From Chloroflexota bacterium (GTDB lineage Bacteria > Chloroflexota > Anaerolineae > Anaerolineales > Villigracilaceae): 64,000 nt of DNA. Where the stretch lies: positions 1 to 64,000 of the forward strand of contig JAJYLQ010000002.1 in the NCBI GenBank assembly GCA_021787595.1. The letters run 5' to 3'. This document shows positions 56,929 to 64,000 of this stretch, piece by piece. Under the pieces are notes generated by a model, which had not been told where the DNA came from, ran no database searches, and saw only the letters and a program-made list of their open reading frames with translations. The translations under genes were made by a program, and so were the position numbers. Each line of letters opens with the position of its first letter. Position 1 is the stretch's first letter.

Positions 56929-59502
56929 ATGTTACGAAAACGCATGATGTTAGCCATCGGTCTATTGATGGCCTTCAGTATGGTTCTGACTGCTTGTGGT
57001 GGAACAGCGACACCTGCCCCGACCACTGCTCCTGCAACGCAACCACCATCTGCTGCTACTCAGGCTCCGGCCCCGACTGCAGCACCCACTGCAGTTCCGC
57101 CCACTACTCGCCACGGCGGCTGGCTCGATGAGATTGATGTTTCAACAGTAGACAGTTCATCTGCCGTCACGCAGATTCAAGCGGGTGCGATCAATATCTA
57201 TGCAGATGGTCTTTCCCCCGCCGACCTCCAAAGCATCAAATCTGCTAACTTGAGTTACGGCACCAACACAGGGTTGTATTACGATATGATGTACAATCCG
57301 GCTGTCTTCAAAGATGCCAATACGCTCAACCCATTCTCGGATCGCAAGATTCGCGAAGCAACCAATATGCTCTTTGACCGCAATTACATCAACCAGGAAT
57401 TCTATGGCGGCGGCGCCCTGGTCAAGTTCTTCCCCTTCATCACCGATGGCCCTGACTACACGGATCTGGCTGATGTTGCTAAAGGCCTCGAAGCTCAATA
57501 TGCCTATAACCTTGACAAGGCCAAATCAACTATTGCGGCTGAAATGACCACGCTGGGTGCAACGCAGGACGCAAGTGGCATGTGGCAGTATAAGGGCAAA
57601 CCTGTCACCATCACCCTCATCGTCCGCAATGATGGCGATAAGACCCGCATTGGCATTGGCGATTATGCCACCAAGCAATTCCAGGCTGTTGGCTTCAAAG
57701 TGAATGAGCAGTATAAGAGTGGTTCTGAAGCCTCCCCGATTTGGATCAGCAGCGATCCAACGGCAGGTCAGTGGAGTGCTTACACCGCCGGATGGATCAA
57801 CACCGCAATCGAACGCGATGGCAAAGGCGATTTCGATGCCATGTATGCTCCAGATAGTGCTCAAGGCATCAACCCAATGCTGGCCAATACAAATATTGAT
57901 CCTGCGTTCCTTAAAGTTGCCGATGATTTGAATAATGGCAACTTTACTTCCCTCGATCAGCGCCGGCAGATGATGGCTCAAGCCATGAAGCTTTCACTGC
58001 AAGATTCACTTCAGGTTTGGCTGGTTGACGACCAGAACTTCACACCGTACTCCAACAATGTTCAGGTCACAACTGACTTGGGCGCGGGCGTTGAAGGTTC
58101 GCAGATTTGGCCATTCACGATTCGCTTCAAGGGCAAGGAAGGCGGCGCGTTGAAATGGGCTACCACTGATCTGTTCACCGATCCGTGGAATGCGGTAGCC
58201 GGCGATAACTGGGTCTGGGATCAAGCCCTGGTCAAGGCCACCTCGAGCGGCGCCTTTATGTTGGATCCCTTCACGGGTCTTGCCTGGCCTCTGCGCGCGT
58301 CCAAGATGGATTTGACAGTGCAGACCGGCTTGCCTATTTTCAAGAACGCGGAGGACTGGGTTACACTGAATACTGCCGATTCGATTTCAGTGCCATCGGA
58401 TGCCTGGGCTGATTGGGATGCCAAGACACAGACCTTCATCCCCGCCGGTGACGGCAAGACTGCCAAGGTCAAGGCTGTTGTTACTTACCCATCTGATCTG
58501 TTCCAGACGGTAAAGTGGCAGGATGGAAGCCCATTGACACCCGCTGACATCGTGATGAACATCATCGAGACCTTTGACCGCGGCAAGAAGGACAGCCCGA
58601 TCTATGATGATGCTTATGCTCCCACGCTTCAGGCTTGGCAGTCAACATTCAAAGGCATAAAGATTGACTCCACAGATCCATTAGTCATCGAGTATTACAC
58701 AGACGGCTATGTCTCGGATGCGGAGTTGAATTACCCGGGTGGGCCGGTTGCAGGCCAGCAGCTCATCTGGCCGCAATATGGCTTTGGTGAAGCTCCGTGG
58801 GATTTGATCGCCATATCCAACATGGCTGATGCTGGTGGCAAGCTTGCCTATTCGACCGACAAAGCGGACGCAAAGAAAGTCGAATGGATGAGCTGGATCG
58901 GCGGCCCGAGTCTCGATATCCTGAACACAGAATTGACCACAGCGGCTGGTTCCTCTCTCATTCCGTATGCTCCTACGCTGAGCAAGTACATCACAGCTGA
59001 TGATGCCAAGACTCGCTATGCCAACTTGCAGGCCTGGTATAAAGCCCATGGTCACTTCGTGGAAGGCACGGGTCCATATTACATTGACAAAGCCTTCGTA
59101 ACTGAGAAGACTCTCACCTTGAAGAACAATTCTGATTATCCTGATCTGGCTGACCGCTGGTCACAGTTCTCTGTGCCGATGCTCGCTGATGCAAAACTGG
59201 ATGGCCCCGCGCAGGTCAAGATCGGTGATCAGGCAACGTTCGATGTGACTGTCACTTTCCAAGGCAACCCATATCCACAGAAGGATGTCAAGGGTGTTAA
59301 ATATCTGCTCTATGACGCTACGGGTGCAGTCGTTGCCACGGGACAAGCCACAGCTGTTGCTGATGGTCACTGGCAGGTTGTGCTTGGTTCTGATGTAACA
59401 TCCAAGCTCACGGCTGGCTCTGACAAGATCGAGGTGGCGGTAAGCCCGATCCCGGTATCTCAGCCTACCTTTACTTCGCTGACCTTCGTGACCACGCCAT
59501 GA
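56929..59502 (+). CDS. Peptide/oligosaccharide ABC transporter substrate-binding lipoprotein, apparently circularly permuted
   Basis: Lipobox LTAC (Cys23) and a Pro/Ala-rich linker to about 60. The family-5 solute-binding fold is then in the wrong order: the motif RHGGWLDEIDV at 61, normally in the middle of the protein, comes first, with FSDRKIREATNMLFDR at 136. Later come VKWQDGSPLTPADIVMNI at 528 (normally early) and GTGPYYIDKAF at 713. Residues after about 750 form an Ig-like beta domain. The protein binds the solute on the outer face and gives it to the permeases. 857 residues. ATG 56929 has GGAGGAG upstream. Confidence 0.8.
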   Translation: MLRKRMMLAIGLLMAFSMVLTACGGTATPAPTTAPATQPPSAATQAPAPTAAPTAVPPTTRHGGWLDEIDVSTVDSSSAVTQIQAGAINIYADGLSPADLQSIKSANLSYGTNTGLYYDMMYNPAVFKDANTLNPFSDRKIREATNMLFDRNYINQEFYGGGALVKFFPFITDGPDYTDLADVAKGLEAQYAYNLDKAKSTIAAEMTTLGATQDASGMWQYKGKPVTITLIVRNDGDKTRIGIGDYATKQFQAVGFKVNEQYKSGSEASPIWISSDPTAGQWSAYTAGWINTAIERDGKGDFDAMYAPDSAQGINPMLANTNIDPAFLKVADDLNNGNFTSLDQRRQMMAQAMKLSLQDSLQVWLVDDQNFTPYSNNVQVTTDLGAGVEGSQIWPFTIRFKGKEGGALKWATTDLFTDPWNAVAGDNWVWDQALVKATSSGAFMLDPFTGLAWPLRASKMDLTVQTGLPIFKNAEDWVTLNTADSISVPSDAWADWDAKTQTFIPAGDGKTAKVKAVVTYPSDLFQTVKWQDGSPLTPADIVMNIIETFDRGKKDSPIYDDAYAPTLQAWQSTFKGIKIDSTDPLVIEYYTDGYVSDAELNYPGGPVAGQQLIWPQYGFGEAPWDLIAISNMADAGGKLAYSTDKADAKKVEWMSWIGGPSLDILNTELTTAAGSSLIPYAPTLSKYITADDAKTRYANLQAWYKAHGHFVEGTGPYYIDKAFVTEKTLTLKNNSDYPDLADRWSQFSVPMLADAKLDGPAQVKIGDQATFDVTVTFQGNPYPQKDVKGVKYLLYDATGAVVATGQATAVADGHWQVVLGSDVTSKLTAGSDKIEVAVSPIPVSQPTFTSLTFVTTP

Positions 59503-59591: not shown

Positions 59592-60716
59592 ATGGCAGTA
59601 GCCGCTCAATCCGCCTCTGAAATTAGCAAGAAGAAATCATCCTCAGGCAGTACGCTTTTACGCGTGGGAAGATATACGGCTATCCGGTTGTTGACTTTAT
59701 TCGTAACTGTTGTGATCGGGGTTTATTTGACGATCTTGATTGCCAACATGGGAGGGTATGTGGATACAATCATGAAGAGCCAAATTACCGAGCGCATTAC
59801 TCAGGCTGCCGCAGCTAACCCAACTTTCCGGAGCATGACACCCGAACAGCGTCAACAAACCGTACAGACGCAGATTGCCAATGAAGAAAACCGCATGGGG
59901 CTGAATACTCCGGTCGTGATTCGTAATTTTACGTATCTGGCGAATGCCCTTACCTTGAATTTGGGCCGCGCCATCAACATGACCAGTGATAGTGGTTCAA
60001 AGGAAGTACGTCTGATCATCCTGGAACGCCTACCTGCCACTTTGCTGCTGATGGGCACATCAGAGTTGTCTTTATTTTTTATCAGTCTCCTGTTGGCCCT
60101 AACACTATCTCGCCGATATGGCAGTTTTTGGGATAAGTTGGTTATCTTGCTTTCGCCGACTTCCACTCCTCCTGCCTGGTTCTATGGAATTTTCCTCATC
60201 CTGCTTTTTGCAGCCGTTTTCAAACTGCTTCCTTTTGGAGGCATGATCGATTCACCGCCGCCAACCAATCCTGTTGATTTCGCATTGAATGTGTTGAAGC
60301 ATCTAATTCTTCCTGCGTCGGCGTTATTCATCAGCCAATTCTTCCTGAGTATTTACAACTGGCGCACTTTCTTCCTGATCTATTCCAGTGAAGATTATGT
60401 GGAGATGGCCAAGGCGAAGGGACTCCCTCCGCGCGATATTGAGCGCCGTTATATCCTTCGCCCAACGCTACCGACCATCATCACGCAATTTGCTTTGTTA
60501 TTGATTACTGTGTGGACAGGTGCGATCGTCACCGAAACTGTTTTCCAGTGGCCCGGTCTTGGACGAACCTTTTATCGCGCCATAGGTTTTTTTGACACCC
60601 CTGTGATTGTGGGTTTAACAATCATATATGCTTATTTGCTTGCGATCACAGTGTTCCTCCTGGATTTTGTTTATGCTTTGGTGGATCCCAGAGTTAAAGT
60701 GGGCGGGAATCAGTAA
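59592..60716 (+). CDS. Peptide-type ABC transporter permease (DppB-like)
   Basis: 374 residues. The C-terminal half has the cytoplasmic EAA-type loop SSEDYVEMAKAKGLPPRDIERRYILRPTLPTIITQ and the closing ETVFQWPGLGRTFYRAI that match DppB/OppB. The N-terminal loop is larger than usual (about 60 residues, MKSQITERITQAAAANPTF). Works with the next gene as heterodimer. Stop overlaps the next start (ATGA at 60714-60719). Confidence 0.88.
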   Translation: MAVAAQSASEISKKKSSSGSTLLRVGRYTAIRLLTLFVTVVIGVYLTILIANMGGYVDTIMKSQITERITQAAAANPTFRSMTPEQRQQTVQTQIANEENRMGLNTPVVIRNFTYLANALTLNLGRAINMTSDSGSKEVRLIILERLPATLLLMGTSELSLFFISLLLALTLSRRYGSFWDKLVILLSPTSTPPAWFYGIFLILLFAAVFKLLPFGGMIDSPPPTNPVDFALNVLKHLILPASALFISQFFLSIYNWRTFFLIYSSEDYVEMAKAKGLPPRDIERRYILRPTLPTIITQFALLLITVWTGAIVTETVFQWPGLGRTFYRAIGFFDTPVIVGLTIIYAYLLAITVFLLDFVYALVDPRVKVGGNQ

Positions 60717-62053
60717 TGAATACACTCAGAAATACTTTCAAGGAAATCTTGCGCTACCCGTCCGCAATTGCAGGTGGGGCGGTGATTTTGTTGTTGATCG
60801 CTGTTTCCATCTATGCGGTAATCACGATACCCTATAACGATGCCATTCGCCTCTGGCGCGGCGGCGAAGACGTCTGGTTTGATAGTCCCAAGTTTGCACC
60901 GCCATCCTGGATCAATTTGTTTTTGAGCAAGAAAGAGCCCGTATCGTTTGCAGTCAATACGGCCAATGGCACGATGAGCAAGACCGTTACAGCGGGGGCG
61001 CAAAACACGAGCACCATCAACATGTCGTATTCCTTCGATTTTCAATACGATGAATACCCTCAGGAGGTGTCGATATACTTCACCTCCAAGTATGTGAAAA
61101 AACAGCCATTTGCTTCCGTGCAATGGGTAACACCTGATGGAAGAAAAATCCGCATCGATGATATTGCATTAGATCCTCAACGAACTTTGCGGTTTTCGCA
61201 AGATCAAAGATTGATCCAAAGATTGAATGGCGAAGACCCCATGAAGGCACTGTTCGAGGATCCCAAGACCCATGCGATCTTAAAAGGGAAATACCAGGTG
61301 CAAATTCTTGGCGTTACATTTGAACAGGGATCCGACATCAATGCGGAGTTTGTGCTCTATGGGCAGGTGGCTGGCTTGGCGGGGACGGATCAGAATCGCC
61401 GGGATTTGATGGTGGCACTTTTATGGGGTGCCCCGATTGCATTGGCTTTTGGTCTCCTGGCATCTATCGGTACCTTGGTGCTCACCATGATCATCGCTGC
61501 CATCGGCACATGGTATGGTGGGTGGATGGACGATTTGATCCAGCGTATTACCGAGATCAACCTGGTTTTGCCACAACTGGCCATTCTTATTATGGTGGGA
61601 ACGTTCTATTCACACAGCATATGGGCAATTTTGGGAGTTACTATTCTCCTCAATATTTTTACCGGCGGCATCAAGAGTTATCGCGCCATTTTTGTGCAGG
61701 TAAAGGAATCCATGTATATTGAGGCGGCCCGTGCCTATGGCGCCTCGAACAAGCGGATCATCTTTCTATACTTGATTCCACGTATGATCCCCCTGCTCAT
61801 CCCGGGTTTGGTGTCATCTGTTCCCTCGTTTGTGTTTCTCGAGTCAACCCTCGCGGTACTTGGCCTAGGCGACCCGGTGCTTCCAACATGGGGCAAGATC
61901 ATAGATGACGCGTTTTCAAACGGGGCCCTCTATAAGGGATACTATTATTGGATCCTTGAACCGGCGGCTCTCTTGATGATTACCGGCCTTGGCTTTTCAC
62001 TGTTGGGCTTTGCGCTGGATCGCATCTTCAATCCGAGATTGAGGGACATTTAA
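60716..62053 (+). CDS. Peptide-type ABC transporter permease (DppC-like) with a large extra domain
   Basis: 445 residues. The membrane part has GTDQNRRDLMVALLWGAPIALAFG and the EAA loop KESMYIEAARAYGASNKRIIFLYLIPRMIPLLIPG, normal for DppC. Between TM1 and the GTD motif is an additional domain of about 140 residues (about 60-205, beta-rich, with YSFDFQYDEYPQEVSIYF), where most DppC have about 30-40. It is extracytoplasmic by topology and could touch the unusual binding protein. Start ATG 60716 overlaps the permease stop. Confidence 0.85.
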   Translation: MNTLRNTFKEILRYPSAIAGGAVILLLIAVSIYAVITIPYNDAIRLWRGGEDVWFDSPKFAPPSWINLFLSKKEPVSFAVNTANGTMSKTVTAGAQNTSTINMSYSFDFQYDEYPQEVSIYFTSKYVKKQPFASVQWVTPDGRKIRIDDIALDPQRTLRFSQDQRLIQRLNGEDPMKALFEDPKTHAILKGKYQVQILGVTFEQGSDINAEFVLYGQVAGLAGTDQNRRDLMVALLWGAPIALAFGLLASIGTLVLTMIIAAIGTWYGGWMDDLIQRITEINLVLPQLAILIMVGTFYSHSIWAILGVTILLNIFTGGIKSYRAIFVQVKESMYIEAARAYGASNKRIIFLYLIPRMIPLLIPGLVSSVPSFVFLESTLAVLGLGDPVLPTWGKIIDDAFSNGALYKGYYYWILEPAALLMITGLGFSLLGFALDRIFNPRLRDI

Positions 62054-62056
62054 TCC

Positions 62057-63016
62057 ATGGCACAACAAAATGTAATTCTCCGTATCGAGGATTTGGTCTT
62101 GCATTTTAAAACCACCCACGGCTTGGTCCAGGCAGTGGATGGTGTGAATTTTGAGTTGGCTACCAATCGGGCCGTAGTGATTCTGGGTGAATCTGGGTGT
62201 GGCAAGAGTTCGCTCGCGAAAGCGATTTTGCGCCTCCTGCCTCGTAATGCAGGTACATATTCAGGGCGGGTCTATCTGGATGGCAAAGATATCATGCCTC
62301 TGGGCGAGGAAGAATTTCGTCAAAATATCCGTTGGGCATCCATTTCAATGGTTCCGCAGGCCGCGATGAATGCACTGAATCCCGTCATCCGGGTTGGGGA
62401 TCAGGTGTCCGAGCCGGCCATGGTTCACCTTGGCGTGGATAAGACCGAGGCGATCTCGCTTGTAAAAAAGATGTTTCAACATGTGGGCGTTCCCGAAGAT
62501 TTCATTTCCCGCTATCCCTTTGAGTTGAGTGGCGGGATGCGTCAGCGCGTTGCCATCGCCATGGCGCTTGTGACATCTCCCGTCTTGATCATTCTTGATG
62601 AACCAACCTCTGCTCTCGATGTATTGACACAGGCCAACATCTTCAATGTTTTGAAGCGGCTTAAAAAAGAGCTGGGGATCAGTTTTATTCTGATTACACA
62701 CGACATTGCCACATCCAGCGAATTGGCGGATGACGTAGCTGTTATGTATGCCGGCCAAATTGTCGAAGTGAGCGATGCCTATCGCTTCTTTGACAAACCG
62801 CTTCATCCCTATTCACAAAAGCTGATGGCGAGTGTTCCGAGATTGCACGGCACGAAGGAACCGGAGTTTATCATCGGCAGGCCACCCAGCTTGATTGACC
62901 TGCCCAAGGGTTGTCGCTTCGCGGATCGCTGCCCTGCTCGTTTTGAGAAATGTGTTCAGGAGCCGTCAGTGGTCGAAAAAGATGGCCGCAAGGTCAAGTG
63001 TTGGTTATATTCCTGA
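62057..63016 (+). CDS. Peptide ABC transporter ATPase (DppD-like)
   Basis: Walker [15 protein letters not shown], signature LSGGMRQRVAIAMAL, Walker B VLIILDEPTSALD and the C-terminal oligopeptide-type CX..C region CRFADRCPARFEKCVQEP, which in some members binds Fe-S. 319 residues. Four bases after the permease stop. Provides energy for import. Confidence 0.92.
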   Translation: MAQQNVILRIEDLVLHFKTTHGLVQAVDGVNFELATNRAVVILGESGCGKSSLAKAILRLLPRNAGTYSGRVYLDGKDIMPLGEEEFRQNIRWASISMVPQAAMNALNPVIRVGDQVSEPAMVHLGVDKTEAISLVKKMFQHVGVPEDFISRYPFELSGGMRQRVAIAMALVTSPVLIILDEPTSALDVLTQANIFNVLKRLKKELGISFILITHDIATSSELADDVAVMYAGQIVEVSDAYRFFDKPLHPYSQKLMASVPRLHGTKEPEFIIGRPPSLIDLPKGCRFADRCPARFEKCVQEPSVVEKDGRKVKCWLYS

Positions 63017-63030
63017 GTTGGGAGCTAGTC

Positions 63031-64000
63031 ATGGCTGTCGCAAAAACGAAAGATGTGGAAAAAGATACAAGAAAAATCTTGTTGGCCATAGATGATTTAC
63101 ATGTTTGGTTCGAGTTGAGACATTTTGGATTCGGTCACGCCGGCTATGTGAAGGCCGTAGACGGTGTGACTTTCAAGGTGCACCAGGGTGAGGCGATTGC
63201 TGTCGTAGGTGAAAGCGGGTGCGGGAAATCCAGCCTGATGAAAACTATTCTGGCTCTCTATAAGCCAACCAGCGGAAAGGTAGTTTTCGAAGATAAGGTT
63301 TTGTCTGAATTGGATGGCCAGGCTCTGCATTGGTATCATTGCCACGTTGGTTACGTTCAACAAGATCCCTATGGTGCGTTGCCGCCATTTATGAATGTCA
63401 GGCGGATTTTGGAAGAGCCGTTGATCGTCAGCGGCGTCAAGGATAAGGAGGAACGCATCCAGCGCATCCGCAAGGCGATGGAGGAAGTAAAGCTCAGCCC
63501 AGTGGAGGATTTCCTGGAGAAGTTCCCGCACATGTTGAGCGGTGGCCAGCAGCAACGCGTGGTGATCGCTCGTGCCATGATTATGGAACCCAGGTTCCTC
63601 GTAGCCGATGAACCCGTGTCCATGCTTGATGCATCGGTGCGCGTCGAAATCCTCAAGCTTTTACGCGGACTTCAGGAAACGCATAATCTCTCCGTTATTT
63701 ACATTACTCATGACCTTTCCACGGTGAGCTATTTCTCCGAGCGTATTTTCGTCATGTATGCTGGTAATCTTGTGGAAAAGGCTAATGTGCGTCAGGTGTT
63801 GGATACTCCCCTTCATCCATACACGATGGCTTTGTTAACAGGCACTTCTGAGCCAGATGCAAAGAATGCTGAAACCTTCAAGGAAATTCCCCCGGGTGAG
63901 CCACCCAGCTTGGTGAACCCGCCAACGGGTTGCCGTTTCCATCCGCGTTGTCCGAAAGCCATTAAGGGACTTTGTGAAGTTAAAGAGCCGCCGGATTTCG
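63031..64000 (+). CDS. Peptide ABC transporter ATPase (DppF-like), cut by window end
   Basis: From ATG 63031 the frame is open to the end of the window, so at least 323 residues are present. It has [14 protein letters not shown] (Walker A), [15 protein letters not shown] (signature), [14 protein letters not shown] (Walker B) and the [15 protein letters not shown] cluster near the C-terminal end. Without its 3' end no stop can be given. It is the second ATPase of the operon. Confidence 0.92.

Follow-up and report, generated by a model that had tools for sequence, protein, structure and literature searches.

Evidence for a natural circular permutation in a cluster C substrate-binding lipoprotein of Chloroflexota

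The protein P0001, encoded in the stretch of 64,000 nucleotides of a Chloroflexota genome that was analysed here (the window), is very probably a naturally circularly permuted substrate-binding lipoprotein of cluster C (SBP_bac_5), in which the second block of ordinary members comes first and their first block second (Table 1). A circular permutation is supported by alignments of the native and of the rotated sequence with the solved structure 7fi3, by rotation scans, by the predicted model, and by the conservation of the order among relatives. The breakpoint lies between the segments ...NNSDYPDLADRW and GGWLDEI, and the old termini are joined at about residues 394-407. The open reading frame is the one given in a preliminary description of this DNA; it is immediately preceded by GGAGG, and its product has the signal sequence with lipobox (LTAC, Cys23) expected of a secreted, lipid-anchored protein.

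Table 1. Positions in the window of the permuted gene, its parts and the adjoining importer genes
Feature	Position	Strand	Basis or remark
P0001, circularly permuted family-5 substrate-binding lipoprotein (very probable), 857 aa	56929..59502	+	ORF; Pfam SBP_bac_5; 48-member family
P0001 signal peptide, lipobox LTAC (Cys23), low-complexity linker, aa 1-61	56929..57111	+	lipobox; low pLDDT 15-52
P0001 aa 62-403, second block of ordinary members, here first	57112..58137	+	7fi3 321-615; canonical columns 237-522
P0001 aa 404-748, first block of ordinary members, here second	58138..59172	+	7fi3 64-307
P0001 C-terminal Ig-like beta domain, aa 749-857	59173..59499	+	AF2 strands 754-856
DppB-type permease	59592..60716	+	Pfam BPD_transp_1 1e-27; adjoining gene in relatives
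DppC-type permease with extra domain	60716..62053	+	Pfam BPD_transp_1 1e-18
DppC extra domain, ~174 aa, between TM1 and TM2	60848..61369	+	association with permuted substrate-binding proteins
DppD-type ATPase	62057..63016	+	ABC_tran, oligo_HPY
DppF-type ATPase	63031..64000	+	extends beyond the window, ending at contig position 64044; read in L066

Segment order

P0001 belongs to SBP_bac_5 by its match to the Pfam model PF00496 (82 bits at a cut-off of 32.4 bits, E = 5e-23), which falls into two stretches, the better of them placing residues 66-292 on profile positions 148-349, i.e., on the late part of the profile. The canonical segment order is absent and the blocks are swapped, as the preliminary description had read from the motifs: WLDEI (residues 65-69) and NPFSDRKIREA...DR (134-151) precede KWQDGSPL (at 529) and NNSDYPD (at 733). 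Its further claim, that the binding fold ends here where the DEI segment would ordinarily begin, agrees with the sequence ADRW at the end of the 404-748 block, which in ordinary proteins is followed without a break by the beginning of the 62-403 block. Lacking the canonical order, P0001 is not an ordinary cluster C member, even though its sequence indicates descent from this family.

When a profile of 44 relatives was compared with solved structures, Thermococcus kodakarensis OppA (7fi3) was matched (1.6e-69) in two out-of-order stretches, profile 469-722 on chain residues 64-307 and profile 57-324 on chain residues 321-615, and the short gap in the chain at 308-320 corresponds to the native termini of the permuted chain. 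After seven relatives had been rearranged as residues 404-748 followed by 62-403, this match became one colinear stretch (76-612 on 63-617) running across the native ends, so that the alignment with OppA proposed beforehand as a check came out as a permutation predicts.

As a control of ordinary order, 31 Chloroflexota family-5 proteins were used, the rotation point being slid along the permuted sequence. In the HMM scan the best native score of 45 bits increased to 61 bits, in one alignment, once the native ends were rejoined. In profile-profile comparisons with the same 31 proteins, residues 63-379 of P0001 aligned with canonical columns 237-522 (99.6%, E = 8e-24) and residues 523-580 with columns 110-164 (96.4%, E = 1e-9), the region of about 400-520 aligning weakly; the native score of 196 (columns 237-522) rose to 274 for rotations by 320-440, in one alignment comprising columns 207-522. 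The halves of P0001 are mutually dissimilar (hhalign probability 0.1%) and each canonical segment is present once, in rotated position; an internal duplication, which the preliminary description had named among the outcomes speaking against its reading, is therefore ruled out. Chance was also considered as the cause of the swapped order, and rejected.

Predicted structure

An AF2 model of P0001 based on a 44-row family alignment reached a pLDDT of 90.2 and a pTM of 0.87 and supersedes a run from the single sequence (pLDDT 34). Structure prediction, likewise suggested beforehand, thus gave a confident model, and the 50 Foldseek matches listed for it are all cluster C substrate-binding proteins, with 7fi3 in first place (1.4e-17). 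The alignments of the matches listed extend over about 310-400 columns, with TM scores normalised by target of 0.33-0.50, in a search that keeps sequence order. Since an order-bound aligner should cover only part of an ordinary target when given a permuted protein, this partial coverage would be as expected for a permutation; on its own it does not establish the complete fold.

Of the Ig-like cap described at first, the beta-rich C-terminal domain stands, residues 749-857 being modelled with a pLDDT mostly above 90; an assignment to an Ig family does not, as Pfam Ig models match below threshold only, and the domain is missing in at least one relative (L052). An Ig-like identity is plausible.

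Distribution and conservation

Matches to the permuted protein occur in 28 of 61 close genomes and in 30 of 301 genomes of a phylum sample, among the latter G004, where the match comprises the signal and linker region only; the sampling has good coverage for Chloroflexota genomes only. All 48 proteins compared across the phylum have the permuted order and none the unpermuted one, which answers the earlier question of whether relatives share it. In a screen of the 301 genomes with a rotated profile, which scored only the best candidates of each genome, all 29 positive genomes showed two swapped halves and none a colinear match at 1e-20. One scan of genome contigs returned a single relative. A plasmid search with P0001 gave no match, and a clade B query was matched only weakly, along roughly a third of its length.

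In the tree, these proteins fall into a clade of 42 rows and another of 6; support is 100% for both, and a long branch lies between them. Proteins of clade A are mostly lipoproteins, the lipobox being found in nearly all with a complete N-terminus; in clade B it is absent, and four of the six members have a C-terminal transmembrane anchor. The distant members L053, L055, L056 and L057 combine the lack of a lipobox with such an anchor, so that their tether has switched ends. In L033, L034, L035 and L051, which are scattered relatives, an Ala-rich insert of about 90-130 aa resides at the same point (near residue 510 of P0001); for that of L033 no Pfam match was found.

The importer operon and the DppC extra domain

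P0001 is followed by the gene set of an Opp/Dpp importer, which comprises a pair of BPD_transp_1 permeases and a pair of Dpp-type ATPases. Nearly all copies of the permuted gene directly precede DppB-DppC-DppD-DppF: in 40 regions of other genomes, DppB and DppC were found downstream in 37, the exceptions being a copy in G298 and the two fusions to a kinase described below.

The extra domain of DppC (about 175 aa), which has no Pfam match, is presumably extracellular. Its pairing with the permuted protein, raised already in the preliminary description, was recovered throughout: all 37 DppC proteins examined beside permuted genes carry the domain, in contrast to none of six other DppC proteins from the same regions. 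Among the 301 genomes, 29 have both the permuted protein and the domain, none the permuted protein alone, 271 neither, and one, G156, the domain alone, in a DppBCDF set without an adjoining substrate-binding protein gene. The significance of this co-occurrence (p = 1e-39, Fisher's exact test) is overstated because the genomes share ancestry and the genes are linked in an operon.

The same DppC domain is also present in single-chain DppB-DppC fusions of 902-980 aa (L197:4270-6975, L198:3188-5893, L199:3135-6074, L200:3265-6198 and L201:4337-7177), next to which no substrate-binding protein was found. Past the window, directly downstream of the permuted operon (G000:C49:64299-68302, corresponding to L066 8300-12303), lie two family-5 substrate-binding proteins of ordinary order and a second DppD/DppF pair; similar proteins occur near several relatives.

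Kinase fusions

In two relatives, G029 and G047, a Ser/Thr kinase is fused to the permuted protein. One fusion (L109:7532-11284, minus strand; Pkinase 2e-52) has no transporter genes within the 18 kb of L109, and the other (L114:2-1915, minus strand; Pkinase 2e-50) is cut by the contig end. A literature search found no published fusions of a kinase with a substrate-binding protein. A use of the kinase-fused permuted module as a sensor is likely.

Alternative explanations

An assembly error, or a rearranged and broken gene in a single genome, could in principle mimic a permutation, and the genome is indeed a draft of 63 contigs; beyond this, nothing was found in support. Dozens of independent genomes, however, encode full-length relatives of the same order; these form two deep clades with long branches between them, and their reading frames and operons are intact. 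The probability of this explanation is therefore negligible, misassembly being excluded by the same order in 48 copies. It is also highly improbable that two half-proteins from different family-5 genes were fused and fold apart from each other instead of forming one flytrap. Permutations usually arise by fusion or by duplication followed by trimming, and the order-bound fold search can align only a single part at once; yet the canonical segments are single-copy, the halves lack mutual similarity, the pTM given above was obtained for a single chain, and both halves have 7fi3 as their closest relative.

The kinase fusions in G029 and G047 might be taken to reveal the true role of P0001, i.e., that of a sensor lipoprotein that has abandoned transport and whose position in the operon is incidental. 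Against this, the fusions are two exceptions, while nearly all copies stand directly before the four importer genes and co-occur with the modified DppC; a sensor role for P0001 is accordingly very unlikely.

Proposed function and origin

As a circularly permuted cluster C protein, P0001 most likely works like ordinary members, namely as the solute-binding Venus flytrap that serves an Opp/Dpp importer. It would fold like an ordinary two-lobed cluster C protein, close on its solute outside the membrane and pass it into the channel formed by DppB and DppC. A peptide, or another oligomer of comparable size, is the probable ligand by analogy with 7fi3, the closest solved relative, which binds a pentapeptide; the residues after the GW motif gave no clear answer as to the ligand.

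The permutation would shift both chain ends to the loop at about 308-320 of 7fi3, so that the lipid tether and the Ig-like cap would both be attached to a surface loop that bears neither in ordinary members. The extra domain of DppC, found wherever the permuted protein occurs, is a candidate contact of tether and cap and most likely the docking partner. A single origin of the permutation is probable, through tandem duplication followed by trimming and before the divergence of the two Chloroflexota clades. More tentatively, it is conceivable, though rather doubtful, that permuted protein and DppC domain are one invention and form a distinct Opp/Dpp subclass in which the binding protein docks via its relocated ends, tether and Ig-like cap, on this dedicated domain of the permease, with the binding module recruited in addition as the extracellular sensor of Ser/Thr kinases.

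Relation to known systems and significance

Few nutrient binders of bacteria are as common as cluster C proteins. With DppA, OppA, AppA and NikA, P0001 has the importer type and probably the fold family (SBP_bac_5, cluster C) in common, but it differs from them in segment order and in the position of its chain ends. The T. kodakarensis OppA, closest both by sequence and, among the matches listed, by fold, shares with the permuted proteins the VPxDA...TAK segment and the NPF..RK.R.A motif; it has the ordinary order, however, and the permuted family aligns with it end to end only after rotation.

Natural circular permutation has a precedent in TpMglB-2 (Tp0684) of Treponema pallidum, a substrate-binding lipoprotein that serves an ABC importer and is conserved in relatives; this member of the 'cluster Bc' sugar-binding proteins is a glucose binder of cluster B (type I) with a short segment moved, and its authors proposed tethering as a possible reason for the permutation (PMC4990184). 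P0001 resembles it in being a naturally permuted ABC-importer lipoprotein kept in relatives, but belongs to cluster C, has about half the chain moved and another breakpoint, carries an Ig-like cap and is paired with a modified permease. A cluster B fold was not recovered for P0001, the sequence and fold matches listed being of cluster C only. A search of the open literature found no report of a permuted cluster C protein, which is not proof of novelty; solute-binding, ABC-transporter and oligopeptide proteins are all absent from the main text of the CIRPIN preprint (PMC12667903).

The rotated order accounts for the fact that the annotation which such proteins receive in profile searches stems mainly from one half of the chain, and the breakpoint of P0001 represents a permutation site that nature has already tested and that could be used in designing biosensors. 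A rotated substrate-binding protein that is conserved across a phylum and coupled to a permease domain constitutes a natural experiment on the importance of chain ends, tethering and docking for ABC importers.
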